A stretch of DNA of 64,000 bases from NCBI RefSeq assembly GCF_013745115.1, contig NZ_CP051151.1:186001-250000 (forward strand). Reading direction: 5' to 3'. This DNA comes from Hujiaoplasma nucleasis. GTDB lineage: Bacteria; Bacillota_I; Bacilli_A; Izemoplasmatales; Hujiaoplasmataceae. Numbering within the stretch: the first letter of the stretch is position 1; each line of letters opens with the position of its first letter. Shown here piece by piece: positions 21,173 through 35,765 of the stretch. The notes beneath the pieces were generated by a model that searched no databases, had not been told where the DNA came from, and saw only the letters and a program-made list of their open reading frames with translations. A program made the position numbers and the translations under genes.

Positions 21173-22894
21173 TTGAATAAGAAAAAACTCATTCAAATAT
21201 CAAGAGGTTTAGTACTTGCTGAACTTGTATTGAAAAACGCCAAAATTGTCAATGTGTTTACAAAATCAATCGAAGCCAACGATATTGCTATCTCTGATGG
21301 TATTATCGTTGGGATTGGATCATATGAAGGAGAAAATGAAATTGATTTAAAGGGGCAATATGTTGCACCTGGTTTTATTGATGGTCATGTCCATATTGAA
21401 TCTAGTATGCTTACACCAAATAATTATGCTTTAGCAACCATTCCTCGTGGTACCACATCAATCATTGCTGATTGTCATGAAATAGCGAATGTGGCGGGTA
21501 AAGAGGGAATTGATTTTATGATTGAATCTGCTAAATCAACTGTTCAAGATGTTTTTATGATGATTCCTTCGTGTGTGCCATCAACTTCATTTGAAACAAG
21601 TGGAGCAATCTTAAAAGCAAGGGATATAAAAAAATACACTGAAAATCCTTCTGTCTATGGCCTAGGTGAAATGATGGATTATCAAGGGGTACTTGAAGGG
21701 GATAAAGATGTGCTTAATAAATTGGAGGATTATTCTCAATTAACTATTGATGGTCATGCTCCGGGTTTAAGTGGTAAAGATTTAAATGCTTATATCTTAT
21801 CAGGTGTAGAAACAGATCATGAATGTGTTGAAGCGAGCGAACTTATTGAAAAGGTTCAAAGGGGTATGTATGTTCATCTAAGGGAAGGTTCACAGACAAA
21901 GAATTTAGTTGACTTATTATCAGGTGTATCTAGTGCATATTATGATCGAATATTATTATGTTCAGACGATTTACACCCAAGTGATATATTAAATGTTGGT
22001 CATATTGATCAAAATGTACGATTGGCAATAAAACATGGATTAGATCCTATCGTTGCTATATCAATGGCGAGTATAAATATAGCTAGATGTTATCATTTAA
22101 ATCATTATGGAGCCATAGCACCAGGATATTACGCAGATTTAGTTGTTTTTAAAAACATTAAGAAAATTGATATTAATATGGTCTATAAAAAGGGAAAACT
22201 AGTCGCTAAAGATAAGCAAGCACTATTTGAAAGCAGAAAAATTGATCCATCTAAACTTCTAGAATCAGTCAATATAAATTTAAATAAAATCAATTTAGAT
22301 TTAACTTTAAAAAACCAATTAGTTTATATTATAGGACTCGTAAAAAATAATATTACAACAAAGAAAATAAAAGCTAGTATTATCTTAGAAAAAGGTTTGT
22401 TTCTTTCAAAAAATAATCCAGGTTTATTAAAATTAGCAGTCATAGAAAGACATCATTCAAGTAACAATATTGGCTTTGGAATAGTCAAGGATTATGGGTT
22501 AAGTAATGGTGCATTAGCATTAACGATTGCTCATGATTCACATAACTTAATTTGTATTGGAGATAATGATATAGATATGTATAAAGCCATTGAAAAAATT
22601 AAAAGTATTGGTGGCGGAATTGTATTGGCATCTGAAGGACATATTATTGATTTTCTGCCTTTAGAAGTTGGTGGTTTAATGTCATTGAATGATGGGCAAT
22701 ATGTCCAAAAGAAGTTATTGAATTTAGAAAATGAGATTAGAAAATTAGGGGTAACTAATGATATTGAAGATCCTTTCTTACAATTAGCTTTTCTATCTTT
22801 AGCTGTTGTCCCTGAAATTAAAGTAACAGACAAAGGTTTGTTTGATGTCGAAAAGTTTCAATTAATTAAATTAGAAGTTGGTGAAGATTCATGA
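21173..22894 (+). CDS. ade: Adenine deaminase
   Basis: A full-length 573-residue adenine deaminase of the Ade amidohydrolase type. It has APGFIDGHVHIESSM (H72, H74), ADCHEIANV, DGHAPG and LCSDDLHP in order, and the C-terminal domain with IAHDSHN and GGGIV. It converts adenine to hypoxanthine and ammonia, feeding hypoxanthine to the hydroxylases. TTG is chosen as start because AGGAGG lies ten bases upstream. It overlaps the next gene by four bases. Confidence 0.93.
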   Translation: MNKKKLIQISRGLVLAELVLKNAKIVNVFTKSIEANDIAISDGIIVGIGSYEGENEIDLKGQYVAPGFIDGHVHIESSMLTPNNYALATIPRGTTSIIADCHEIANVAGKEGIDFMIESAKSTVQDVFMMIPSCVPSTSFETSGAILKARDIKKYTENPSVYGLGEMMDYQGVLEGDKDVLNKLEDYSQLTIDGHAPGLSGKDLNAYILSGVETDHECVEASELIEKVQRGMYVHLREGSQTKNLVDLLSGVSSAYYDRILLCSDDLHPSDILNVGHIDQNVRLAIKHGLDPIVAISMASINIARCYHLNHYGAIAPGYYADLVVFKNIKKIDINMVYKKGKLVAKDKQALFESRKIDPSKLLESVNINLNKINLDLTLKNQLVYIIGLVKNNITTKKIKASIILEKGLFLSKNNPGLLKLAVIERHHSSNNIGFGIVKDYGLSNGALALTIAHDSHNLICIGDNDIDMYKAIEKIKSIGGGIVLASEGHIIDFLPLEVGGLMSLNDGQYVQKKLLNLENEIRKLGVTNDIEDPFLQLAFLSLAVVPEIKVTDKGLFDVEKFQLIKLEVGEDS

Positions 22895-24138
22895 CGTATG
22901 TTAAAGGCTTGAGGTGTACCCATTGTAATCATTTTTATCCTTTTGAAAAGGATTTAATGATATGCCCAAATTGTCAAGAAAAAGGAATACTTGACATTGA
23001 GTATAAGTATAAGGAAATTAAGGAAGTCATGAATAGAGATTATTTTAAGAATAACTTAGATTTGTCTATTTGGCGGTATTTACCTTTGTTGCCTGTTGAA
23101 GAAAAATATACGAAGAATTCCTTAAGAGTTGGCTGGACACCATTATATAAGAGTTTTAATTTACAAACAATGATTGATATTAAATCATTATATATTAAAG
23201 ATGAGGGTTTAAATCCAACACAGTCTTTAAAAGATAGGGCTTCAGTCATTGCCTGTGTGAAGGCCTTGGAAAATAATTATGAAATTATATCTTGCTCATC
23301 AACTGGAAACGCTGCTTCATCATTGGCTGGCAACGCTGCAAAACTAGGACTCAAAACAGTTATTTTTGTTCCAAAAAGAGCACCCGTTGGAAAATTAACT
23401 CAACTATTAGTCTTTGGAGCCGATTTAATTAAAGTTAACGGTGATTATAAGTCTACTTATCAATTATCAAAAGCGGCCATAAGTCATTATGGTTGGTACA
23501 ATAGAAATGCTGCAGTCAATCCATATCTGGTTGAAGGTAAAAAAACAGTGGCTTTGGAAATAGCTGAGCAACTTGAATTTAATTTAACAGATTGGGTTAT
23601 AGTTTCTGTGGGAGACGGATGTACGATTGGTGGAGTTTATAAAGGTTTTTATGATCTTATTGAACTAGGTTTAATTGATCGTATGCCTAAGTTATTAGGC
23701 GTTCAAAGTGAAGGCTGTTCACCATTCTATAAAGCTTTTCATGAAGAAAAGGAGATGGAAGAAAGTGAAGAAAATACACTTGCAGATAGTATAGCAGTAG
23801 GCATACCTAGAAATCCTATCAAGGGATTAAAGGCTGTAAAAAATAGTCATGGTAGTTTTGAGATTGTATCTGATGACGAAATCATGGATGCTATGCTTTT
23901 ACTGGCAAAGTATGAAGGCGTATTTGCTGAACCTGCAGCCGCAGCCGGTTTAGCAGGATTAATGAAGTCTAGAAAGAAAAATTTAATTAAACCATCTGAT
24001 ACAGCCACCGTAATTATCACTGGCAATGGATTAAAAGATACAAAAAATGCATTAAATGTAATTAATGAACCAGTTCTTTTAAATAATGATTTAAAAGATT
24101 TAATAGACTACATAGAAAGAGGCGAAAGTAATGAGTAA
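22891..24138 (+). CDS. Threonine-synthase-like fold-type-II PLP enzyme
   Basis: A 415-residue PLP enzyme. An N-terminal zinc ribbon (C9, C12, C25, C28) is followed by the threonine synthase core: SLKDRAS with the Schiff-base Lys114, SSTGNAASS for phosphate binding, and VSVGDGCTIGG. Its place in the operon suggests a lyase acting on an amino-acid-like purine fragment rather than threonine synthesis. In related clusters this place is held by YgeX, diaminopropionate ammonia-lyase. True threonine synthase cannot be excluded. Confidence 0.72.
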   Translation: MTYVKGLRCTHCNHFYPFEKDLMICPNCQEKGILDIEYKYKEIKEVMNRDYFKNNLDLSIWRYLPLLPVEEKYTKNSLRVGWTPLYKSFNLQTMIDIKSLYIKDEGLNPTQSLKDRASVIACVKALENNYEIISCSSTGNAASSLAGNAAKLGLKTVIFVPKRAPVGKLTQLLVFGADLIKVNGDYKSTYQLSKAAISHYGWYNRNAAVNPYLVEGKKTVALEIAEQLEFNLTDWVIVSVGDGCTIGGVYKGFYDLIELGLIDRMPKLLGVQSEGCSPFYKAFHEEKEMEESEENTLADSIAVGIPRNPIKGLKAVKNSHGSFEIVSDDEIMDAMLLLAKYEGVFAEPAAAAGLAGLMKSRKKNLIKPSDTATVIITGNGLKDTKNALNVINEPVLLNNDLKDLIDYIERGESNE

Positions 24139-25483
24139 AATTCCATTTGGACCAACTTATGATGAAATGTGCAACCCATCTCATATTGATCCGAACATAA
24201 GAAAAAAAGCGTTAGAAAGTAAAGAAAATGAACTAAATCCAATAAACTTATTTAACATTAATTGGAAAGATGATAACAATCAAGTTCATAAAATTGTTTT
24301 ACCTAAAGAAATGACAGGTGTCGAAGCCAATATAGTCGTTCTATTAGGAAAGTATTTCCCTTCAGGGTCTCATAAAGTTGGACCTGCTTATTCTACACTC
24401 ATTGAAGGATGTGTTGATGAGAATATTATTCCTGGCAAGCACACAATATTAGGACCTTCAACAGGTAATTTTGGTATCGGAGTATCTTATATCTGTAACT
24501 TAATGAAATATGATTCTATTGTCATCATGCCAGATAATATGAGTAAAGAACGTTATGAACGCATTCAAAAATATGGGGCAAAATTAGATTTGACGCCTGG
24601 GACTGAATCAGATGTTATTTTAACATTAGAGAAAACCTACGAATTGGCTAAAAATACTAAGAATAGATCTTTAGCTCAATTTGAATTATTGCCTAATTAT
24701 CGTTTTCATCGTCATGTGACGGGAAATGCTTGTATTGAAGCTGTAAAAAATGTTGGAAATGGAAGGATAGCTTGTTTTACTTCAGCGCCTGGTTCGGCTG
24801 GGACTTTAGGTGCGGGCGACCAAATTAAAAAAGAGTTTCCTGAGGCTAAAGTGGCTGCTTTAGAACCTTATGAATGTTCAACATTGATGAATGGTGGACG
24901 TGGACAACACCGTATTGAGGGTATTGGCGATAAGATGTGTACACTCATTCATAATGTATTAACCACAGATTTTGTTGTGATGATAAAAGATGAAGAAACG
25001 GTTCAAGGTTTAAAAGTGATTCATAACGGAATTAGTGTATTGGAATCTTTTGGTATTGATAAAAAAATCGCTGAATCAATGACTGATTTATTTGGCCCTT
25101 CAGGTATATGTAATATTATTGGCGCAATTAAAATGGCTAAATATTTACATTTGGGACCTGGAGAAAATGTAGTAACCATTGCGACTGATGGTTATGACAG
25201 ATATGATACCGTAATTCAAAATCTTGAACAAAGATATTTAGAGACAGAAGATTTCGTACTAAAAAGATGGTTTAAAGATGTGTTCTTAAATGCGGATACT
25301 AATTATATTGCAGATTATAGACCTATAAGCCAAAAAGAAAAGTTGTTCATACAAAAAGAAAAAGATTGGTTAAAATTTGGATATACAAAAGCTTATTTAG
25401 ATTCTATGAAAGATATGTCTTTTTGGGATAATGAATACAACAAGGTTTTTGAATATGACAAACTAATCAAGGAAAAGAGGTAA
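24131..25483 (+). CDS. PLP-dependent lyase-like enzyme (TrpB/cysteine synthase fold)
   Basis: A 450-residue fold-type-II PLP enzyme. GSHKVG contains the predicted Schiff-base Lys82 in a TrpB-like SHK context, GPSTGNFG binds phosphate, and [13 protein letters not shown] is a second conserved loop. Similar proteins, annotated only as PLP-dependent lyase or thiolase, sit beside YgeY and YgeW in purine-degrading anaerobes. A beta-elimination or ammonia-lyase reaction on a diamino or ureido acid is plausible. It starts within the end of the previous gene, so the two PLP enzymes are translationally coupled. Confidence 0.7.
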
Positions 25484-25488
25484 GATGT

Positions 25489-26700
25489 ATGGATTTTAAA
25501 AAAGTATTAGAATTATCTAAATCATATGAAAAAGATATGACAAGATTTTTAAGAGACATGATCGCTATCCCAAGTGAAAGTTGTCATGAAGAAAAAGTCA
25601 TTCAAAGAATTAAAAGAGAAATGGAAAAAGTTTCTTTTGATGAAGTGAAAATTGATCCAATGGGTAACATTATTGGACGTATTGGCCATGGACCTATTGT
25701 TATTGCTATGGATGCCCATATAGATACAGTAGGTGTTGGTGAAATAAAGAATTGGAAATTTGATCCATATAATGGCTTTGAAGATGAAACTAGTATTGGT
25801 GGACGCGGAGCATCAGATCAAGAAGGTGGGATGGCGTCTATGATATATGCTGGGAAAATCATCAAAGAGTTAGGTTTAGAAAAAGATTATACCTTATATA
25901 TTACTGGTACTGTTCAAGAGGAAGATTGTGATGGGCTATGTTGGCAATACATTATTGAACAAGACAAATTAAAACCAGAGTTTGTAGTCATTACAGAGCC
26001 TACTAATTTAAACATTTATAGGGGTCATCGTGGTCGCATGGAAATTAAAGTTTCAACAAGTGGCGTATCTTGTCATGGTAGCGCTCCAGAAAGAGGAGAC
26101 AATGCTATTTATAAAATGGGACCGATCTTAAAAGACCTAGAAGAGTTAAACCATCATTTATTAGACAATGATTTCCTAGGAAAAGGAACATTGACGGTTA
26201 GTGAGATTGGTCATTCATCACCTTCTAGATGCGCAGTTGCTGATGGATGTTGGATTTCAATAGATAGAAGACTCACTGATGGCGAAACCTTTGAGTCAGC
26301 TTTAAAAGAAATAGAAGACTTAGATTCTGTAAAAAAAGCAAATGCAGTGGTTGAAATGTATGATTATTCAAGACCTTCATATACTGGTTTGGTTTATCCA
26401 ACAAAATCATATTTCCCGACTTGGGTTTTGCCAGAGGACCATATCGTATGTCAAAGTACAGTTCAAGCATATGAATCTTTGTTTAATCAAAAACCACTCG
26501 TTGATAAATGGACTTTTTCAACCAATGCTGTTTCAATCATGGGTAGACATCAAATTCCATGTATTGGATTTGGACCTGGAAAGGAAGAACAAGCACATGC
26601 ACCAAATGAAATAACCTATAAAGAACATCTCATAAAGGCTTGTGCAATGTATGCGGTTATACCGACAATGTATGTAAAACATAAAAAGGAAGGAAAATAA
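25489..26700 (+). CDS. ygeY: YgeY-family M20 metallohydrolase
   Basis: A 403-residue M20 amidohydrolase/peptidase with all metal-site residues visible: H77 and D79 in AHIDT, bridging D110 in GASDQEGG, the catalytic Glu pair E144/E145 and E170 in ITEP, plus a C-terminal HAPNE histidine. The overall pattern matches the YgeY group, which was first linked to selenium-dependent molybdenum hydroxylases. It should hydrolyse an N-carbamoyl or N-acyl bond of a purine-derived intermediate in the cytosol. Confidence 0.85.
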
Positions 26701-26701
26701 T

Positions 26702-27685
26702 ATGAAACCAGAATTTAAAGGAAAACATTTTATCACGCTTGAAGATTGGTCAAAAGAAGAAATAGAAAGATTACTTGAAGTATCAAAATTAATGAAAGAT
26801 AAATTTTTACATAATGAAGATACGAGCTATTTAAAAAACAAAACAGCATTTTTAATGTTCTTTGAACAATCAACAAGAACTAGAAATTCTATGGAAGCAG
26901 GTATTGCTCAATTAGGGGGACATGGTAATTATTTAGATACATCAGGGATGCAAATATCTCATGGAGAATCAGCAAAGGATACAGCTGTTATATTATCTAG
27001 TTATGGACATGGAATCGCTTGTAGAAATTGCTTTTGGGGTATAGGTAATAAATATTTGAGAGAAATGGCACAACATTCTACAGTGCCTGTAATGAATTTG
27101 CAATGTGATTTATACCATCCAATGCAAGGATTGGCAGATTTAATGACTATTCAAGAGGTGTTTCCAAAACAAAATAATATTAAAGTTTCTATTATATGGG
27201 CTTATGCAAGAAGCCATAAAAAACCTATATCGGTGCCTTTAACACAAATTTTATTGTTTCCAAGATTTGGTATGGATGTGACTTTAGCTTACCCTGAAGG
27301 CTATGATTTGCCAGATTGGGCTATTGAAAAGGCTAGAGCAAATGCTAAGGAAAACAATGGGTCTTTTAGAATCACTCATAATATGGAAGAAGCATTTAAA
27401 GATGCAGATGTTGTGATCCCGAAAAACTGGGGATCTTGGGTAAACAATCAGTCAACTGAAGTCGTAGATGATTTATTAGAATCATATAAATCATGGAAAT
27501 GTACTGAAGAAATGATGGCTTTGGCTAATAATAACGTTAAATACATGCATGCATTACCTGCTGATAGAGGCAATGAAGTAGAAAATTCTGTGATAGATGG
27601 TCCACATTCAATAGTCTACCAAGAAGCAGAAAACAGACTTCATACCGCCAAAGCAGTTATGGCAATGACTATGGGCGACAAATAA
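26702..27685 (+). CDS. ygeW: YgeW-family knotted carbamoyltransferase
   Basis: A 327-residue transcarbamoylase. QSTRTRNS (S57-T58-R59-T60-R61) binds carbamoyl phosphate, and CDLYHPMQGLAD and MHALPADRG complete the active site. The long loops between domains are those of the knotted YgeW group rather than of OTCase or ATCase. It would run phosphorolysis of a ureido compound, giving carbamoyl phosphate for ATP synthesis. The carbamate kinase that usually completes this step (YqeA) is not in the window. It lies two bases after ygeY. Confidence 0.87.
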   Translation: MKPEFKGKHFITLEDWSKEEIERLLEVSKLMKDKFLHNEDTSYLKNKTAFLMFFEQSTRTRNSMEAGIAQLGGHGNYLDTSGMQISHGESAKDTAVILSSYGHGIACRNCFWGIGNKYLREMAQHSTVPVMNLQCDLYHPMQGLADLMTIQEVFPKQNNIKVSIIWAYARSHKKPISVPLTQILLFPRFGMDVTLAYPEGYDLPDWAIEKARANAKENNGSFRITHNMEEAFKDADVVIPKNWGSWVNNQSTEVVDDLLESYKSWKCTEEMMALANNNVKYMHALPADRGNEVENSVIDGPHSIVYQEAENRLHTAKAVMAMTMGDK

Positions 27686-28225: not shown

Positions 28226-28260
28226 AACGGTGTAAGAATTTCTCTTACACCGTTACTGTT
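28226..28260. terminator. Terminator closing the purine operon
   Basis: A perfect 12-bp stem (28226-28237 with 28243-28254), a 5-base loop and a short T tract lie between two convergent genes. This is the first strong terminator after 7966. Confidence 0.9.
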
Positions 28261-28261
28261 T

Positions 28262-28744
28262 TTAATAAAGTTCCTTATCTTTTTCTTGATATTCTTTAAA
28301 AAGTTTTAAACATGTTTGTCTTTCTGTTTCTTCTAAATCAAGAATTTCGAAATTTTCTCTGCCATTTTCAATGAATTTATAGATAAAATCATCTCTGAAG
28401 CCAATAGCATCTGCATCACTTTCAATACAACCAAAGTATACTTTCTTGATATTTGACCAAATGATAGCACCCAAACACATTGGACATGGATATGCCGTAG
28501 TATAAAGAGTACAATTTGATAAATCATGGGATCCAATTTCTTTGCAGGCTTTTCTTATTGCGTTTATTTCAGCGTGTGCTGTTGGATCATGATCTCCTAA
28601 GACAGTGTTTGATGCTATTGAAAGAATTTGACCATCTTGATCAATAATTAAAGCGCCAAAGGGTCCACCTATATTTTGATTCATGGTTTTTCTAGCTTCT
28701 TCAATAGCTAATTCCATAAGTTTTTTGTGGTTTTTGTCTTTCAT
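28262..28744 (-). CDS. guaD: Guanine deaminase (cytidine-deaminase fold)
   Basis: A 160-residue zinc deaminase. It has TAHAEINAIRKAC (H57, catalytic E59) and YPCPMCLGAI (C87, C90), plus GGPFGALI and the FIYKFI region that distinguish small bacterial guanine deaminases from tRNA adenosine or cytidine deaminases. It makes xanthine from guanine. It is convergent with the purine operon and has its own strong promoter, so it completes entry of both purine bases into the pathway. Confidence 0.85.
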   Translation of the reverse strand: MKDKNHKKLMELAIEEARKTMNQNIGGPFGALIIDQDGQILSIASNTVLGDHDPTAHAEINAIRKACKEIGSHDLSNCTLYTTAYPCPMCLGAIIWSNIKKVYFGCIESDADAIGFRDDFIYKFIENGRENFEILDLEETERQTCLKLFKEYQEKDKELY

Positions 28745-28906: not shown

Positions 28907-28924
28907 TTTAGTGAGGTGATAAAT

Positions 28925-29650
28925 ATGAAGTTAGAAGAGGTAGAAGCTCTTAAACAGGAGTTGTTGAACAAGAAAAAATCAATGTCTAAAGAAGAAATCT
29001 TAAAGAAACAAGAAGATTTTGATACATTGTATATTTACGAGTCAACGAATTTTAATAACGATGACTTCACTTATGAAGATGTTGAGTTCTTGTTGGAAGA
29101 TCATTCACGCGAATTTCCTGATAAAAAAAGGAATAGACGCAAAGCTATTATAAACAATTATCACGCTTTACAAATGATTCATAGGCTATCATCAAAGAAA
29201 ATCGCATATGATGAAGAAATAGTTAAGGATTTACATCAAACCCTTGTAGATGGAATTATTGGCGGAGGCGTTTATAGAAGCCGAGATTTATTTATTTTAG
29301 GGGCTAAGCATGTTCCACCTAGTTACTTAAAAATTTATAAAAAGATGGATGACTATTTTGAAAAACTTAGAAATCCACAATTAAAAGGATTTGAAAGAGC
29401 AGCATATGCTCACTTACAATTCTTGAAAATTTATCCCTTTGTTGATGCTAATGGGAGATTAGCAAGATTGTTGCTTAATTATGAATTAGAATTGCAAGAT
29501 TATTTACCTGTATCAATCACTAAAAAACTTCAGGATGAATACTTTGATGCAATTGACGAGTATAAAATCAATAAAAAAACTGAACCATTCATCGATTTCT
29601 TAATGAAACTAGAAGCAGAAAGAATCAAAGATTATATAAAGGGAGAATAA
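28925..29650 (+). CDS. Fic-domain protein with substituted catalytic and inhibitory residues
   Basis: A 241-residue Fic/DOC-fold protein. The ATG at 28925 is preferred because the upstream in-frame GTG lies inside the ribosome binding site. The Fic core reads IYPFVDANGRLAR, so Tyr170 replaces the catalytic His while D, N, G, R and the second Arg remain. The inhibitory motif S-x-x-x-E-G appears as S40-T-N-F-N44-N, so the inhibitory Glu is also lost. Canonical AMP transfer is therefore unlikely. A nucleotide-binding or other phosphotransfer role is possible. It leads an operon with lipoate ligase and glycine cleavage genes. Confidence 0.82.
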   Translation: MKLEEVEALKQELLNKKKSMSKEEILKKQEDFDTLYIYESTNFNNDDFTYEDVEFLLEDHSREFPDKKRNRRKAIINNYHALQMIHRLSSKKIAYDEEIVKDLHQTLVDGIIGGGVYRSRDLFILGAKHVPPSYLKIYKKMDDYFEKLRNPQLKGFERAAYAHLQFLKIYPFVDANGRLARLLLNYELELQDYLPVSITKKLQDEYFDAIDEYKINKKTEPFIDFLMKLEAERIKDYIKGE

Positions 29651-29682: not shown

Positions 29683-30654
29683 ATGAAATACGTTAATTAT
29701 CCGTTTAATGAGACAAAAAGATTAAGTTTTTATTTGGCGACTGAAGAGTTTTTAGCCAAACATTATCCTAAAGATGAATATTTCTTTATGTGGCAAGTAA
29801 AACCTACAGTTATTTTTGGTAGAAATCAGTTAATTGAAAATGAAGTGAATATGGATTATGTTAAAGAAAATAACATAGAATTTTATAGGAGAAAATCTGG
29901 TGGCGGATGTGTATACGCTGATTATTCTAACATAATGTTTTCTTTCATAACTCCTAATTTTAATAAGGACTTTGTCTTTACAACTTATTTATCAAGAATT
30001 ATTAATATTTTAAGAGATTTAGGTTTGGATGCTAATTTTTCAGGAAGAAATGATATATTAGTAGGTGACTTAAAAGTATCTGGTAATGCTTTTTATCAAG
30101 TCAATTCTAGGTCAGTTGTCCATGGAACAATGCTATATAATACTGATTTAGCAGAAATGGTTAAAGCTATTACACCTGATAATGAAAAATTAGTTTCTAG
30201 AGGTATTGACTCCGTTAGAAAAAGAGTTACCAATGTAAAGGACCATATTGATATATCTATTGAGGATTTTAAAGCTTTCATCAAAAAAAATATATCTGAT
30301 GAAGATATTACATTAAGTGAATCTGACATTAAAATAATTGAAGATATAGAGAAAACATATTTAGCTGATGCATTTATCTATGGAAAAAATCCTAATTATA
30401 CTTTAATAAAAAAAGGTAAGGTTAAGGCTGGTTTGTTTGAAATATCCTTAGAAATTAAAAATAAACTAATAAAAAAGATGAATATATTAGGTGATTATTT
30501 TATTGTTCAAGATGAGGAAGAGTTAATTAATCTTCTAATTAACAAAGAGTATGATTTAGATAAGATAAAAAATGTATTAGATAGTATTGATGTGTCCAAC
30601 TATATATATGATTTATCAAATGAAGATTTTTTATCTTTATTATTTAAAGAATAA
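29683..30654 (+). CDS. lplA: Lipoate-protein ligase A
   Basis: A 323-residue ligase with the LplA hallmarks: the RKSGGGCVYAD loop, GRNDI, DLKVSGNAF with the lipoyl-AMP lysine, HGTML, and the C-terminal accessory domain from about residue 235. It activates lipoate with ATP and attaches it to carrier proteins. The operon partner is GcvH, whose Lys65 is the obvious target. AAAGGAG precedes the ATG. Confidence 0.92.
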   Translation: MKYVNYPFNETKRLSFYLATEEFLAKHYPKDEYFFMWQVKPTVIFGRNQLIENEVNMDYVKENNIEFYRRKSGGGCVYADYSNIMFSFITPNFNKDFVFTTYLSRIINILRDLGLDANFSGRNDILVGDLKVSGNAFYQVNSRSVVHGTMLYNTDLAEMVKAITPDNEKLVSRGIDSVRKRVTNVKDHIDISIEDFKAFIKKNISDEDITLSESDIKIIEDIEKTYLADAFIYGKNPNYTLIKKGKVKAGLFEISLEIKNKLIKKMNILGDYFIVQDEEELINLLINKEYDLDKIKNVLDSIDVSNYIYDLSNEDFLSLLFKE

Positions 30655-30680: not shown

Positions 30681-31760
30681 ATGAGTGAAGTTAAAAAAAC
30701 ACCTTTGCATCAAGCCCATCTCAATCTGAAGGCAAAAATGGTTGAATTTGCTGGATTTGATATGCCTATATCATATACCTCCATCAAAGAAGAACATGAA
30801 GCTGTTAGGAATAATGTTGGGATGTTTGATGTATCGCATATGGGTGAAATTCTTTGCGAAGGCAAAGATGCAGAAAAATTTGTAGAATATATGTTTACAA
30901 ATGATGTTCAATCTTTAATGGTTGGACAAATAGCTTATGGGATGCTCTTGTATCCACAAGGGACTGTTGTCGATGATTTACTGGTATATAAAATCTCTAA
31001 AGAGCGCTTCTTTTTAGTAGTCAACGCAAGTAACATTGATAAGGATTATCAACACTTAATCCAATATAGTAAAGATTTTGATGTTTTAATAACTAATTTG
31101 AGTGAAGTTTATGCTGAAATAGCTGTTCAAGGTCCAAAAACAGAAAATACAATAAAAACACTATTAGATATTGATTTAAGTGGATTGGAATTTTTCCATT
31201 TTATTCAAGTGAAATATCATGATCATAATTTGCTTATTTCTAGAACTGGTTACACTGGTGAAGATGGTTTTGAAATTTATGGTGATTCCGTAATTATTCA
31301 AAAGTTATGGGACACATTTATTGAAGGTGGAATAATGCCTTGTGGCCTTGGTTGTAGAGATACACTTAGATTTGAAGCAAATCTTCCGCTTTATGGTCAT
31401 GAAATCTCTCAAGATATTACGCCACTAGAAGCAGGGTTAAAATATTTTGTTAAGATTGATTCACATTTAGATTTTTTAGGTAAAGAATATTTAATGAATC
31501 ATGATGTTAAGCGAAGAGTTGTTGGATTAGAATTAGATCAAAAATCTATTCCTAGAGAAGGATACAAGGTTTATAAAGATGATGAAGAAATAGGTTATAT
31601 TACGACAGGTTATTTATCTATTTCAACTGGAAAGCCTATTGCACTAGCCATGGTTAATCGTCCTCATACTAAACAAGGAACTAAAGTGTCTGTTCAAATT
31701 AGGAATAAAATGTTTACTGGTTTTATTAGAGATAAAAAATTTTTAAAAGATAGAAAATAA
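30681..31760 (+). CDS. gcvT: Glycine cleavage system T protein (aminomethyltransferase)
   Basis: A full-length 359-residue T protein. HxxLxAKMVEFAGFDMPISY opens it, FDVSHMGE and NDV follow, and the RDTLRFEA segment and C-terminal barrel complete it. It transfers the aminomethyl carbon from lipoyl-GcvH to tetrahydrofolate, releasing ammonia and 5,10-methylene-THF. It is the first of four contiguous glycine-cleavage genes. Confidence 0.94.
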   Translation: MSEVKKTPLHQAHLNLKAKMVEFAGFDMPISYTSIKEEHEAVRNNVGMFDVSHMGEILCEGKDAEKFVEYMFTNDVQSLMVGQIAYGMLLYPQGTVVDDLLVYKISKERFFLVVNASNIDKDYQHLIQYSKDFDVLITNLSEVYAEIAVQGPKTENTIKTLLDIDLSGLEFFHFIQVKYHDHNLLISRTGYTGEDGFEIYGDSVIIQKLWDTFIEGGIMPCGLGCRDTLRFEANLPLYGHEISQDITPLEAGLKYFVKIDSHLDFLGKEYLMNHDVKRRVVGLELDQKSIPREGYKVYKDDEEIGYITTGYLSISTGKPIALAMVNRPHTKQGTKVSVQIRNKMFTGFIRDKKFLKDRK

Positions 31761-31776
31761 TGAAGGGAGAATTATA

Positions 31777-32160
31777 ATGAGTAAAGTAGTGAAAGGTCTT
31801 TATTATTCTGAAGATCATGAATGGGTAAAAGTTTTAGAAGATGGTATTTGTTTAATTGGTATTACAGATTTTGCTCAAGCTGAATTAGGTGATGTTGTTT
31901 TTGTTGATTTACCTGAAGCTGGAGATGAAATCGTTCAAAATGAGGAATTTGGAGCTGTAGAATCAGTAAAAGCTGCTTCAGATTTAATTGCACCTGTATC
32001 AGGTGAGATTCTAGAAGTTAATGATGAACTTATAGGAGAACCTGAAAAAGTAAATCAAGAACCATATGAATCATGGTTTATTAAAGTGAAAATGAGTGAT
32101 CCAGAAGAGATTAACAATCTTCTAGATCATGAAGCATATCAAAAAGCAACCGCTGAGTAG
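31777..32160 (+). CDS. gcvH: Glycine cleavage system H protein
   Basis: A 127-residue lipoyl carrier with DHEWV near the start and the lipoylation hairpin ESVKAASD, with Lys65 as attachment site. It shuttles the aminomethyl group between the P, T and L proteins. The L protein (dihydrolipoyl dehydrogenase) is not in this operon and must be encoded elsewhere. Confidence 0.95.
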   Translation: MSKVVKGLYYSEDHEWVKVLEDGICLIGITDFAQAELGDVVFVDLPEAGDEIVQNEEFGAVESVKAASDLIAPVSGEILEVNDELIGEPEKVNQEPYESWFIKVKMSDPEEINNLLDHEAYQKATAE

Positions 32161-32170
32161 GTGAAAAACA

Positions 32171-33505
32171 TTGTTTAAGTATTTCCCGCATACTAAAGCT
32201 GATATCGAGAAAATGCTTAAGAGTTTAAACATAAATTCAATTGATGAATTGTTTAGTGAATTACCTAAAGAGGTAATCTATAACTCTGACTACGATATTC
32301 CAAGCTTTATGTCAGAATTTGAGTTGAGAAATTATTTTGATAAGTTAAGTGATCAAAATAAAGAATTAACTCTATTTTCTGGTTTAGGGGCTTATGATCA
32401 TTACCAACCTGCTGTTATTGATGCCTTAACATCTCGACAAGAGTTTATGACATCTTATACCCCATATCAACCTGAAATTTCTCAAGGTACCTTACAATAT
32501 ATTTTTGAATATCAGTCAATGATTCAAACATTAACAGGTATGGATATTTCTAATGCTTCTATGTATGATGGAGCAACAGCGACTGCAGAAGCATGTTTTA
32601 TGGCTGCAAGCATCCGTAGAAGAAGTAAAATTTTAGTTTCTAGAAGCTTAAATCCTAATACGATGAAGGTCATAGAAACTTACTTGAAATTTAAGGGTAT
32701 AGAATGGGATTATATTGAAACATCTAATGGTGTCACAGATTTTGAAAGTTTAAAAACTAAACTTGATAAAGATGTGGCTGGCGTAGTTGTTCAAAATCCT
32801 AACTTTTTTGGTTATATAGAATCATACGAAGGTTTTAGTGATTTGTTAAAAGAAAATAAATCACTTTTCATCATGAATTCTGATATATCTACACTTGCAG
32901 TATTAAAATCACCCTATGAACAAGGGGCAGATATTGCTTGTGGAGAATGTCAATCATTAGGTTTGCCAGTAGCATTTGGCGGTCCATATTTAGGTTATTT
33001 AGCAACAAATAAAGAATTTGTCAGAAAAATGCCTGGTAGAATTTGTGGTTATACACATGATTTAGATGGACAAAGAGCTTTTGTCTTAACCTTACAAGCT
33101 AGGGAACAACATATTAGGCGTTCCAAAGCGAATTCTAATATTTGTTCTAATCAGTCTTTATTAGCATTATTTGTGACTGTATATTTATCTGTTATGGGAA
33201 AAAAAGGTTTGAAAAAAGTTAATGATTTATCATATCAAGGAGCACATTACTTATATGATCGTTTACTAAAAACCAAGAAATTCTCAGATCCATTTAAACA
33301 ACCATTTTTAAAAGAATTTGTATTAGAAACAAGTTTGTCTCATGATTTAATTAAAGAAGCTTTGTTAAAACATCAAATTTTTGGTGGTTTTTCTCTGTCT
33401 CATTTTGGTGAAGAATATGATAATTTAATTAACTTCGCTGTAACTGAAAAGAGAACAAAAGCAGAAATTGACAAGCTTATTGAAGTCTTGGAGGGATTAT
33501 CATGA
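32171..33505 (+). CDS. gcvPA: Glycine dehydrogenase (decarboxylating) subunit 1
   Basis: A 444-residue N-terminal half of the split P protein, with FxGLGAYDHYQPA, PYQPEISQGTLQ and GEAQS-like CGECQSLG. It pairs with GcvPB; only the other half carries the PLP lysine. It starts with TTG behind GTAGGTG and overlaps gcvPB by four bases. The split P protein is usual in Firmicutes and other anaerobes. Confidence 0.93.
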   Translation: MFKYFPHTKADIEKMLKSLNINSIDELFSELPKEVIYNSDYDIPSFMSEFELRNYFDKLSDQNKELTLFSGLGAYDHYQPAVIDALTSRQEFMTSYTPYQPEISQGTLQYIFEYQSMIQTLTGMDISNASMYDGATATAEACFMAASIRRRSKILVSRSLNPNTMKVIETYLKFKGIEWDYIETSNGVTDFESLKTKLDKDVAGVVVQNPNFFGYIESYEGFSDLLKENKSLFIMNSDISTLAVLKSPYEQGADIACGECQSLGLPVAFGGPYLGYLATNKEFVRKMPGRICGYTHDLDGQRAFVLTLQAREQHIRRSKANSNICSNQSLLALFVTVYLSVMGKKGLKKVNDLSYQGAHYLYDRLLKTKKFSDPFKQPFLKEFVLETSLSHDLIKEALLKHQIFGGFSLSHFGEEYDNLINFAVTEKRTKAEIDKLIEVLEGLS

Positions 33506-34986
33506 TCGCTTACAAAAAATTGATTTTTGAACTATCCAAAGAAGATAGAGTTGGTTATTCATTACCACCTTCAAGATTTACAGATTATTCAATTGAAGAT
33601 CTAAGTAATTCTTTTAAAAGAGAAAGTGATTTATTACTTCCTGAGGTTTCAGAATTAGATGTATTAAGACATTTTACAAATATTTCAAATAAGAACTTTG
33701 GTGTTGAAAATGGGTTTTATCCTTTAGGGTCTTGTACGATGAAGTATAACCCTAAAATAAACGAAGAAATTGCTTCTTTAAGAGCTTTTAGAAGATTACA
33801 TCCTTTACAGCCTATATCTACAGTTCAAGGGGCTTTAAAAGTATATTATGAACTACAAAAGATTTTATCTGAAGTCTCTGGCCTACATGAGTTTACTTTA
33901 AATTCATATGCCGGCGCTCACGGCGAATTGGTTGGCTTAATGGTCATTAAGAAATATCATGAAGCAAATCAAGACTTTAAACGCAATAAAATTATTATTC
34001 CCGATTCAGCTCATGGAACTAATCCGGCTTCAGTTGTGGTTTGTGGCATGGAAGTAATCGAAATTAAATCCAATGAACGTGGTAGAGTTTCAATTGATGC
34101 TTTAAAAGAAGCTGTTAAAGATAGAGATGACATTGCTGGAATGATGTTAACTAATCCAAATACATTAGGTATTTTTGAAGATGATATTTGTGAAATTACA
34201 AAAATTATTCATCAAGCCGGTGGTTTAATGTACTATGATGGGGCGAACTTAAATGCTTTATTAGGAAAAGTAAGACCGGGGGATATGGGCTTTGATGTTA
34301 TGCATATTAACTTACATAAAACATTCTCAACACCTCATGGTGGCGGTGGACCTGGTTCTGGTCCTGTTGGAGTCACAAAAGAATTAGCGGAATACTTACC
34401 AAATCCTCGTATCAAAAAAATTGAAGATCATTATTATATAGAAAATAATGGGGATGCTATTGGACAAATATCTGGTTTCTATGGTAATTACATGATTGCC
34501 TTAAGAGCCTATGTATATTTATTAACTTTAGGTAAAGAAAATATTAAATTAATAGGTCCTTATGCTACATTGAATGCCAATTACATCAAAGAACAACTTA
34601 AATCTTTATATCAATTACCTATAGATGGTAACTGTATGCATGAAGTTGTTTTTAATGGATTGGTGGATAAAGATACTGAAGTAAAGACTTTAGACATTGC
34701 AAAAAGACTTTTAGACTATGGTATGCATGCTCCAACTATTTATTTCCCTTTATTATTCCCTCAAGCAATTATGATAGAACCAACTGAAACCGAATCACTT
34801 CAAACCATGGATGAATTCATTTCGGTAATGAAGGATATTGCTATTGAAGCCAAAGAACACCCTGAAAGGCTTAAAGAAGCACCAACCAAAACTCCGATTA
34901 GAAGAACTGATGAAGTTTTCGCTGCTAAAGAAATGATATTCTCCTACAAAGACTATCTCGAATATAGAGAGAAAAGAGAAGAGTAA
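33502..34986 (+). CDS. gcvPB: Glycine dehydrogenase (decarboxylating) subunit 2
   Basis: A 494-residue PLP half of the split P protein. NLHKTFSTPHGGGGPGSGP contains the PLP lysine (Lys273) and the flexible glycine loop, and FYPLGSCTMKYNP near residue 72 is strongly conserved. With GcvPA it decarboxylates glycine and loads the lipoyl arm of GcvH. CvpA starts two bases after its stop. Confidence 0.95.
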   Translation: MIAYKKLIFELSKEDRVGYSLPPSRFTDYSIEDLSNSFKRESDLLLPEVSELDVLRHFTNISNKNFGVENGFYPLGSCTMKYNPKINEEIASLRAFRRLHPLQPISTVQGALKVYYELQKILSEVSGLHEFTLNSYAGAHGELVGLMVIKKYHEANQDFKRNKIIIPDSAHGTNPASVVVCGMEVIEIKSNERGRVSIDALKEAVKDRDDIAGMMLTNPNTLGIFEDDICEITKIIHQAGGLMYYDGANLNALLGKVRPGDMGFDVMHINLHKTFSTPHGGGGPGSGPVGVTKELAEYLPNPRIKKIEDHYYIENNGDAIGQISGFYGNYMIALRAYVYLLTLGKENIKLIGPYATLNANYIKEQLKSLYQLPIDGNCMHEVVFNGLVDKDTEVKTLDIAKRLLDYGMHAPTIYFPLLFPQAIMIEPTETESLQTMDEFISVMKDIAIEAKEHPERLKEAPTKTPIRRTDEVFAAKEMIFSYKDYLEYREKREE

Positions 34987-34988
34987 CA

Positions 34989-35720
34989 ATGAATATTTTT
35001 AATCTATTTGGTATTTTTGATGTCCTAATAGTGATTGCGGTTATCGCCATGATCATTATGGGCTGGAAAAAAGGGTTTTTATTAAAAATTGTTGAATTAG
35101 CTTCTGGCTTATTTGGCCTAATAGCTTCTTTATTGCTGACTAGACCTTTCTCTAATTTACTGGATAAATGGTTTGGTTCTGATATTGAAACACGAATTCG
35201 TGATCATTTAATCTCTAAAAACCCTGAACTTTCAGACAACTTGACAGAACCTCGCTTAAAAGAAGCATTAGAAGGCTTAAGTATGCCTGATTTTATTACT
35301 AAATGGATTAGTGATTCAATTGATTACGAAGAAGCAACACGATCTATTATTGAAGCGATCACTCCTTTATTTAAAACGATGATATTGATTGTGATTGCCT
35401 TCCTTACACTATTCTTTGGATCAATGATTATATTTTTCTTTTTGAAACTACTATCTAAAGCCATTACAAGAGTACCAATTATTAGACAAATTGATAAAGT
35501 ATTAGGTGCTTTTTTCGGGCTATTTAAAGTAAGTATGATTATCTTTGTATTGTTGTTATTATTAAGTTTTGTATTAGCCATACCAGCTATCAATAACGCT
35601 ATTGGTGATTTTGTATATGTTGATATGCAACTAAGCACAGATAGTTTTAGGTTATCTAAGTGGCTCTACAATAATAATATTTTTAGGTTTATAATTAATA
35701 TATTCTTATCGATAATTTAA
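34989..35720 (+). CDS. CvpA-family membrane protein
   Basis: A 243-residue protein with four hydrophobic helices. The opening IFDVLIVIAVIAMIIMGWKKGF and the helix pair around residues 140-195 fit the CvpA/colicin-V-production family. Its function is undefined in most bacteria. Position at the end of the glycine cleavage operon may be fortuitous. Confidence 0.75.
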   Translation: MNIFNLFGIFDVLIVIAVIAMIIMGWKKGFLLKIVELASGLFGLIASLLLTRPFSNLLDKWFGSDIETRIRDHLISKNPELSDNLTEPRLKEALEGLSMPDFITKWISDSIDYEEATRSIIEAITPLFKTMILIVIAFLTLFFGSMIIFFFLKLLSKAITRVPIIRQIDKVLGAFFGLFKVSMIIFVLLLLLSFVLAIPAINNAIGDFVYVDMQLSTDSFRLSKWLYNNNIFRFIINIFLSII

Positions 35721-35726
35721 AAAAAT

Positions 35727-35765
35727 AGCACAAGTTAATTTTTAACTTGTGCTTTATTTTTGTTT
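35727..35765. terminator. Bidirectional terminator
   Basis: A perfect 12-bp stem (35727-35738 with 35742-35753) with A and T tracts on either side. The stop codon of the convergent GGDEF gene lies inside the stem. Confidence 0.9.

Follow-up and report, generated by a model that had tools for sequence, protein, structure and literature searches.

What a Fic fold does without its catalytic base is the question raised by a gene of Hujiaoplasma nucleasis that we call ficY. Fic proteins are usually classed as AMPylating toxins, effectors or chaperone regulators, and they are mostly patchy in distribution. The gene lies in a stretch of 64,000 nucleotides of contig NZ_CP051151.1 (positions 186,001 to 250,000; the window). 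Its product lacks the defining His of the Fic motif; throughout one family of the Izemoplasmatales it is firmly established, under tight constraint, in the operon of a core metabolic pathway. Collectively, the data presented below indicate that FicY is probably a repurposed regulator and not a decayed enzyme.

A tyrosine in the Fic motif and its conservation

The open reading frame spans 28916-29650 on the forward strand, with the ATG at 28925 as the most plausible start (Table 1). The product matches the Pfam Fic domain PF02661 with an E value of 6e-17 and 62.8 bits at a cut-off of 24, which places it in the Fic/DOC family. An AlphaFold2 model built from 36 sequences (pLDDT 93.5, pTM 0.91) has the Fic fold, with human FICD structures as the best PDB matches (TM ~0.88, rmsd ~2.0 Å), and FICD also ranked first in the PDB sequence-profile comparison (E 4e-25). 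This model replaced one from a narrower alignment, in which the flap reached a pLDDT of only 70. In the alignment with canonical Fic proteins Tyr170 falls on the catalytic His and Asn44 on the Glu of S-N-A-I-E-G. The canonical AMP-transferase motif HPFx[D/E]GNGRxxR is absent from FicY; all orthologues read IYPF[M/V]DANGRLAR, i.e. His is replaced by Tyr and the first Gly by Ala (DANGR for DGNGR), while the Mg ligand Asp174, the second Gly and both Arg are kept. The initial annotation of this gene, made from the sequence alone, had placed the reading frame, the motif and the residue numbers correctly, and both the Tyr at the catalytic position and the intact nucleotide-binding residues are real; the Ala, as second invariant departure from the motif, was absent from it.

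Table 1. Positions of ficY, its motifs and the downstream cluster genes in the window.
Feature	Position	Strand	Remarks
ficY	28925..29650	+	241 aa, single Fic domain, N-terminal inhibitory-helix region, class II-like layout
S40-T-N-F-N44-N45, inhibitory-motif site	29042..29059	+	Asn44 codon AAT at 29054-29056
R120-D-L-F-I-L-G-A-K-H-V-P-P132, target-docking flap region	29282..29320	+	identical in 30/30 orthologues
Fic motif K168-I-Y170-P-F-V-D174-A175-N176-G177-R178-L-A-R181	29426..29467	+	
Tyr170 codon TAT	29432-29434	+	context ...HLQFLKIYPFVDANGRLARLLLN; column of catalytic His
lplA, lipoate-protein ligase	29683..30654	+	TIGR00545, 336 bits; second cluster gene
gcvT, aminomethyltransferase	30681..31760	+	name by homology and cluster position
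gcvH, glycine cleavage H protein, lipoyl-Lys motif ESVKA	31777..32160	+	PF01597, E 2e-45; alignment
gcvPA	32171..33505	+	name by homology and conserved position; homologues in related gcv operons
gcvPB	33502..34986	+	name by homology and conserved position; homologues in related gcv operons
cvpA, CvpA/colicin V production family membrane protein	34989..35720	+	PF02674, E 5e-15; last cluster gene
Bidirectional terminator-like hairpin closing the cluster	35727..35753	.	consensus match only

Orthologues with 60-88% identity were found in 33 of the 34 family genomes, including that of the window, and in all 11 genera, when 61 related genomes were searched; the sole family genome without ficY is 63% complete. 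Among the 30 orthologues read at full length, Tyr170, Asp174, Ala175, Asn176, Gly177, Arg178 and Arg181 do not vary, and neither does the flap equivalent, the stretch R120-DLFILGAKHVPP. The Tyr is also present in the remaining three family members (G005, G007 and, via locus L044, G030), hence in 33 of 33, and because of this invariance a chance origin is excluded. A degenerate DNA pattern for YPFxD[G/A]NGR matched 20 of 20 family genomes and none of 375 other genomes of the class. In a second draw from the same class, which overlaps the first, four of 392 genomes matched, all of them family genomes; none of about 500 non-family genomes of the class has the motif. Fic paralogues from the other two families of the order are about 30% identical or more distant, and those read carry HPF[x]DGNGR together with SNAIEG or a similar sequence. 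Public records with an orthologue are labelled Mycoplasmatota bacterium zrk2, Candidatus Izimaplasma and Candidatus Izemoplasmatales.

Purifying selection on ficY is strong: the within-genus mean dN/dS of 0.065 is the lowest in the operon (0.075-0.165 for the six other cluster genes), values that are rough because synonymous sites are near saturation. In a tree of 46 Fic proteins the FicY clade forms one group with a support of 100/100. Its stem is very long, at a probably imprecise 3.8 changes per column, and its internal branches are short; such a long stem below a slowly evolving crown is as expected for a change of function that was then held under tight constraint. The family-wide Tyr and the low dN/dS rule out a sequencing error or a recent inactivation.

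The same observations bear on the view that FicY is the remnant or pseudogene of a Fic toxin from a toxin-antitoxin system, inactivated by the exchange of His for Tyr and now drifting. Bacterial Fic proteins typically belong to toxin-antitoxin modules (PMC8401265), one transition is enough to turn His (CAY) into Tyr (TAY), and sporadic cases exist. For example, a distant Fic protein on a viral, prophage-type contig (L100:5542-6288) has IYPFADGNGRVGR, with the motif IYPFADGNGR, and an intact SGKIEN, while a Lactococcus relative (L183) that is 52% identical to it has His; hence, the replacement of His by Tyr also arises sporadically elsewhere. Nevertheless, such an origin as a decaying toxin is extremely improbable, since reading frame and Tyr are intact in 33 genomes, the flap is invariant, the gene is distributed like a core gene and not patchily, no antitoxin gene is present and the inhibitory segment resides in the same chain. 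Drift is refuted by the invariant Tyr and the dN/dS value. A toxin-antitoxin module was likewise rejected, because the neighbours are lplA and gcv genes and the position is fixed in 33 of the 34 family genomes; PADLOC matches to PDC-S04 and SoFic reflect the shared Fic domain only. Relatives of FicY were looked for in viral contigs and none were found. The 80 viral Fic loci were retrieved with HPF-based patterns, so that the frequency of His among them is not a neutral survey. One viral-contig protein (L120:464-1204) has QPFIDGNKR, in which Gln replaces His, and resembles the published Doc D2 clade.

Residue 44 and a possible catalytic role

It had also been noted initially that the inhibitory Glu is missing, and the loss of base and inhibitor together was taken as coordinated change rather than random decay. 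Asn44 indeed sits at the Glu site in the window, but among the 30 orthologues this position is Asp in 22, Glu in seven and Asn in the window species only, so that the class II motif site reads S-T-x-F-[D/E]-N; the Glu-bearing versions (STSFEN) fit the published [S/T]xxxE[G/N] exactly. A single transition turns Asp (GAY) into Asn (AAY), and Asn44 is a single-species change. Because the acid is mostly kept and Asn44 is confined to the window species, the argument of a coordinated loss fails, and Asn44 was rejected as co-conserved partner of Tyr170 (Tyr in 33 of 33 homologues, Asn in one of 30). An evolved change in place of decay is, however, borne out by the fixed Tyr and the dN/dS value. Close homologues that all retain His and Glu would, according to the initial annotation, have pointed to a single recent inactivation or a sequencing error; none of them has the His, while for the acid this pattern is largely seen, each close homologue having Asp or Glu at the site.

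AMPylation by Fic enzymes depends on the His as base, and in deAMPylation by FICD, where the Glu positions the attacking water, the His serves as acid (PMC8373988). The exchange H111A abolished deAMPylation by EfFIC (PMC6408439), and H363A eradicated it in FICD, the mutant staying trapped in a long-lived complex with AMPylated BiP (PMC8373988). Within the motif, nucleotide phosphates are bound by the second Gly and the two Arg, and the first Gly is required sterically; the flap docks the target (PMC8401265). From these roles and the loss of His, FicY would be expected to still bind nucleotide and not to AMPylate efficiently.

It might be possible that FicY is active nonetheless, with Tyr170 as general acid/base or covalent nucleophile of a transferase or hydrolase that acts on LplA, GcvH or lipoyl-AMP, though we regard this as somewhat unlikely. 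A transferase would move AMP or another phospho-moiety; a hydrolase, given the acidic residue 44, would be a deAMPylase or adenylate hydrolase. All catalytic residues other than His are kept, the purifying selection is extreme, and Asp/Glu44 (29 of 30 orthologues) and Tyr170 could fill the roles of Glu and His in deAMPylation by FICD (PMC8373988). Moreover, variants of the Fic motif catalyse other chemistry such as phosphocholination and phosphorylation (PMC8401265). On the other hand, His-to-Ala exchanges kill deAMPylation in EfFIC and FICD, and Ala in place of the first Gly may alter the anion nest. It also counts against an active FicY that at neutral pH free Tyr makes a poor base and that, to our knowledge, no known Fic enzyme uses Tyr at the catalytic His site. 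The kept acid at residue 44 favours a hydrolytic reaction if FicY is active, whereas Asn44 would remove the water-positioning acid, which argues against hydrolysis in the window species. The more specific proposal, in which FicY modifies or hydrolyses LplA, GcvH or lipoyl-AMP in a step not seen before, with Tyr170 serving as acid/base or as a nucleophile that becomes nucleotidylated, is quite improbable; such a step would place lipoate and glycine metabolism under nucleotide control by a second route, one built on a Fic protein.

The lipoate ligase and glycine cleavage cluster

The gene setting of ficY, a lipoate/glycine-cleavage cluster, had been missed in the initial annotation. The order ficY-lplA-gcvT-gcvH-gcvPA-gcvPB-cvpA is kept in the family loci examined wherever the contig is long enough, the gap between ficY and lplA measures 33-46 nt in all loci measured, and the downstream gaps are similarly short in most. 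Genes upstream of ficY vary between genera. Both ficY and gcvT are present in 32 of the 34 family genomes; of the two exceptions, one is a genome whose ficY lies close to the end of a contig, and the second is the 63% complete genome, which is without both. A search for a glycine riboswitch upstream of the operon, in this region of the window and at seven related loci, gave no match to Rfam.

In the sister family the gcv operons are without ficY, and several of them (L083 to L088 and L092) begin with an LplA-LipA fusion of 612-615 aa. LipA scored above the cut-off in eight genomes of the sister family and in none of the 34 genomes of the window's family, which therefore probably obtains its lipoate by scavenging, as judged from a search for LipA, to which LipS1/LipS2 is an alternative route. 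At the operon position where the window's family has ficY and a separate lplA, lipoate synthesis seems to have been lost or replaced. Since a 2-oxoacid dehydrogenase E2 is also encoded in the genome, LplA likely serves one further client or more and is probably not dedicated to GcvH. Family-specific hydroxyl residues (Ser, Thr or Tyr) that could mark a target were looked for in GcvH and GcvT and none were found; differences in LplA are uninformative because the LplA proteins of the two families are only ~37% identical.

Gene order is the sole tie of FicY to the glycine cleavage proteins, LplA probably also serves the PDH-type E2, and the last gene, cvpA, is likewise no obvious glycine cleavage gene. 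Hence, FicY could be a nucleotide sensor or structural subunit for a process outside lipoate and glycine metabolism, with the operon providing constitutive or co-regulated expression. We consider this unlikely, because the seven-gene order is held across many genera while the upstream genes change, and ficY and gcvT co-occur in nearly all family genomes.

Some features upstream of ficY were also recorded. A deaminase gene (28262-28744, reverse strand), TadA-like but far under the TadA cut-off, lies between a LigT gene and ficY; this neighbour is found in the window's genus, and other genes take its place in the rest of the genera examined. A bidirectional terminator-like hairpin (28226-28254) separates the convergent genes for the LigT-type phosphodiesterase and the deaminase. 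Further upstream, the stretch 22891-27685 holds a row of genes for two PALP enzymes, an M20 peptidase and a carbamoyltransferase with a partial match to YgeW; this row may resemble the ygeW-ygeX-ygeY cluster.

A putative docking regulator among known Fic systems

The explanation that we prefer, tentatively and at slightly less than an even chance, is that FicY is a neofunctionalised FICD-like Fic protein without ordinary AMP transfer, which in its nucleotide-liganded form docks a protein of lipoylation or glycine cleavage. In the ancestor of the family it would have become established as the first member of the lipoate-ligase/glycine-cleavage operon and given up the canonical AMP transfer that depends on His; the nucleotide pocket (Asp174 for Mg, Asn176, Gly177, Arg178 and Arg181) and the invariant flap are kept. 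FicY may then bind ATP/ADP or an AMP-modified partner and hold, without turnover, a target region of one of the proteins encoded alongside it, LplA or GcvH being the most plausible, whereby lipoylation or glycine cleavage flux might be tuned. The partner is proposed from gene order only, and conserved order suggests co-regulation, not physical interaction. We count the effects of the His mutants, EfFIC H111A and the trapped complex of FICD H363A, in favour of docking. The acid at position 44 in 29 of 30 orthologues counts against it, being what an active deAMPylating Fic protein would keep, and so do the missing family-specific target mark in GcvH and an LplA that is probably not dedicated to GcvH.

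A functional precedent is the SirTM/macrodomain/GcvH-L/LplA2 operon, in which an operon-encoded GcvH-like protein undergoes nucleotide-based modification (PMC4518038). Like the ficY cluster, it encodes a nucleotide-dependent protein modifier together with a lipoate ligase and an H-protein, which by analogy may support the docking of FicY. In contrast, its modifier is a sirtuin ADP-ribosyltransferase with a macrodomain, its H-protein is GcvH-like and not part of a true glycine cleavage operon, and the two systems share no homology. FicY raises the question of whether nucleotide-dependent protein control of lipoate attachment or glycine cleavage exists outside sirtuin/macrodomain systems. Within open-licence papers, no link between Fic proteins and lipoate or glycine cleavage was found.

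The top match in sequence and fold is the class II AMPylase/deAMPylase FICD/HYPE with C. elegans FIC-1. FicY shares with them the N-terminal inhibitory segment, the motif residues Asp, Asn, Gly, Arg and Arg, and the H[V/I]PP end of the flap. It differs in having Tyr for His, Ala for the first Gly and Asp, Glu or Asn at the Glu234 position, in lacking a TPR domain or membrane anchor, and in heading a metabolic operon. Fic clades without the His are already known, and FicY adds the Tyr version. In Doc clade D2 (45 sequences, motif Qx[F/Y]x[D/E][G/V]NKR) the His is replaced by Gln, and the authors argue that the clade is not dead (PMC4454073). It is, like FicY, a conserved clade with a replaced catalytic His, but has Gln instead of Tyr and a Lys (NKR), belongs to another subfamily, and no connection with lipoate or glycine cleavage has been reported for it; its motif does not fit the YPFxDANGR of FicY. 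About a quarter of the Bartonella BepFIC sequences are without the His, and BepC, for which no enzymatic activity was detected, binds a nucleotide analogue and its partner GEF-H1 (PMC8401265). These are also Fic folds with altered motifs; unlike FicY they are secreted host effectors with BID domains and not metabolic-operon proteins, and BepC retains His146. A DANGR motif in AnkX could not be confirmed and was set aside. Finally, the same genomes also carry canonical Fic paralogues (e.g. at L069 and L074, with SNAIEG and IHPFIDGNGRTAR), which are about 28-30% identical to FicY and fall in the same region of the tree, but have His and Glu intact, an N-terminal extension and a patchy distribution. 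The window's genome encodes two more Fic proteins (G000:C1:954627-955199 and 962792-963067), the first with canonical SNHIEG and HPFQDGNGR.
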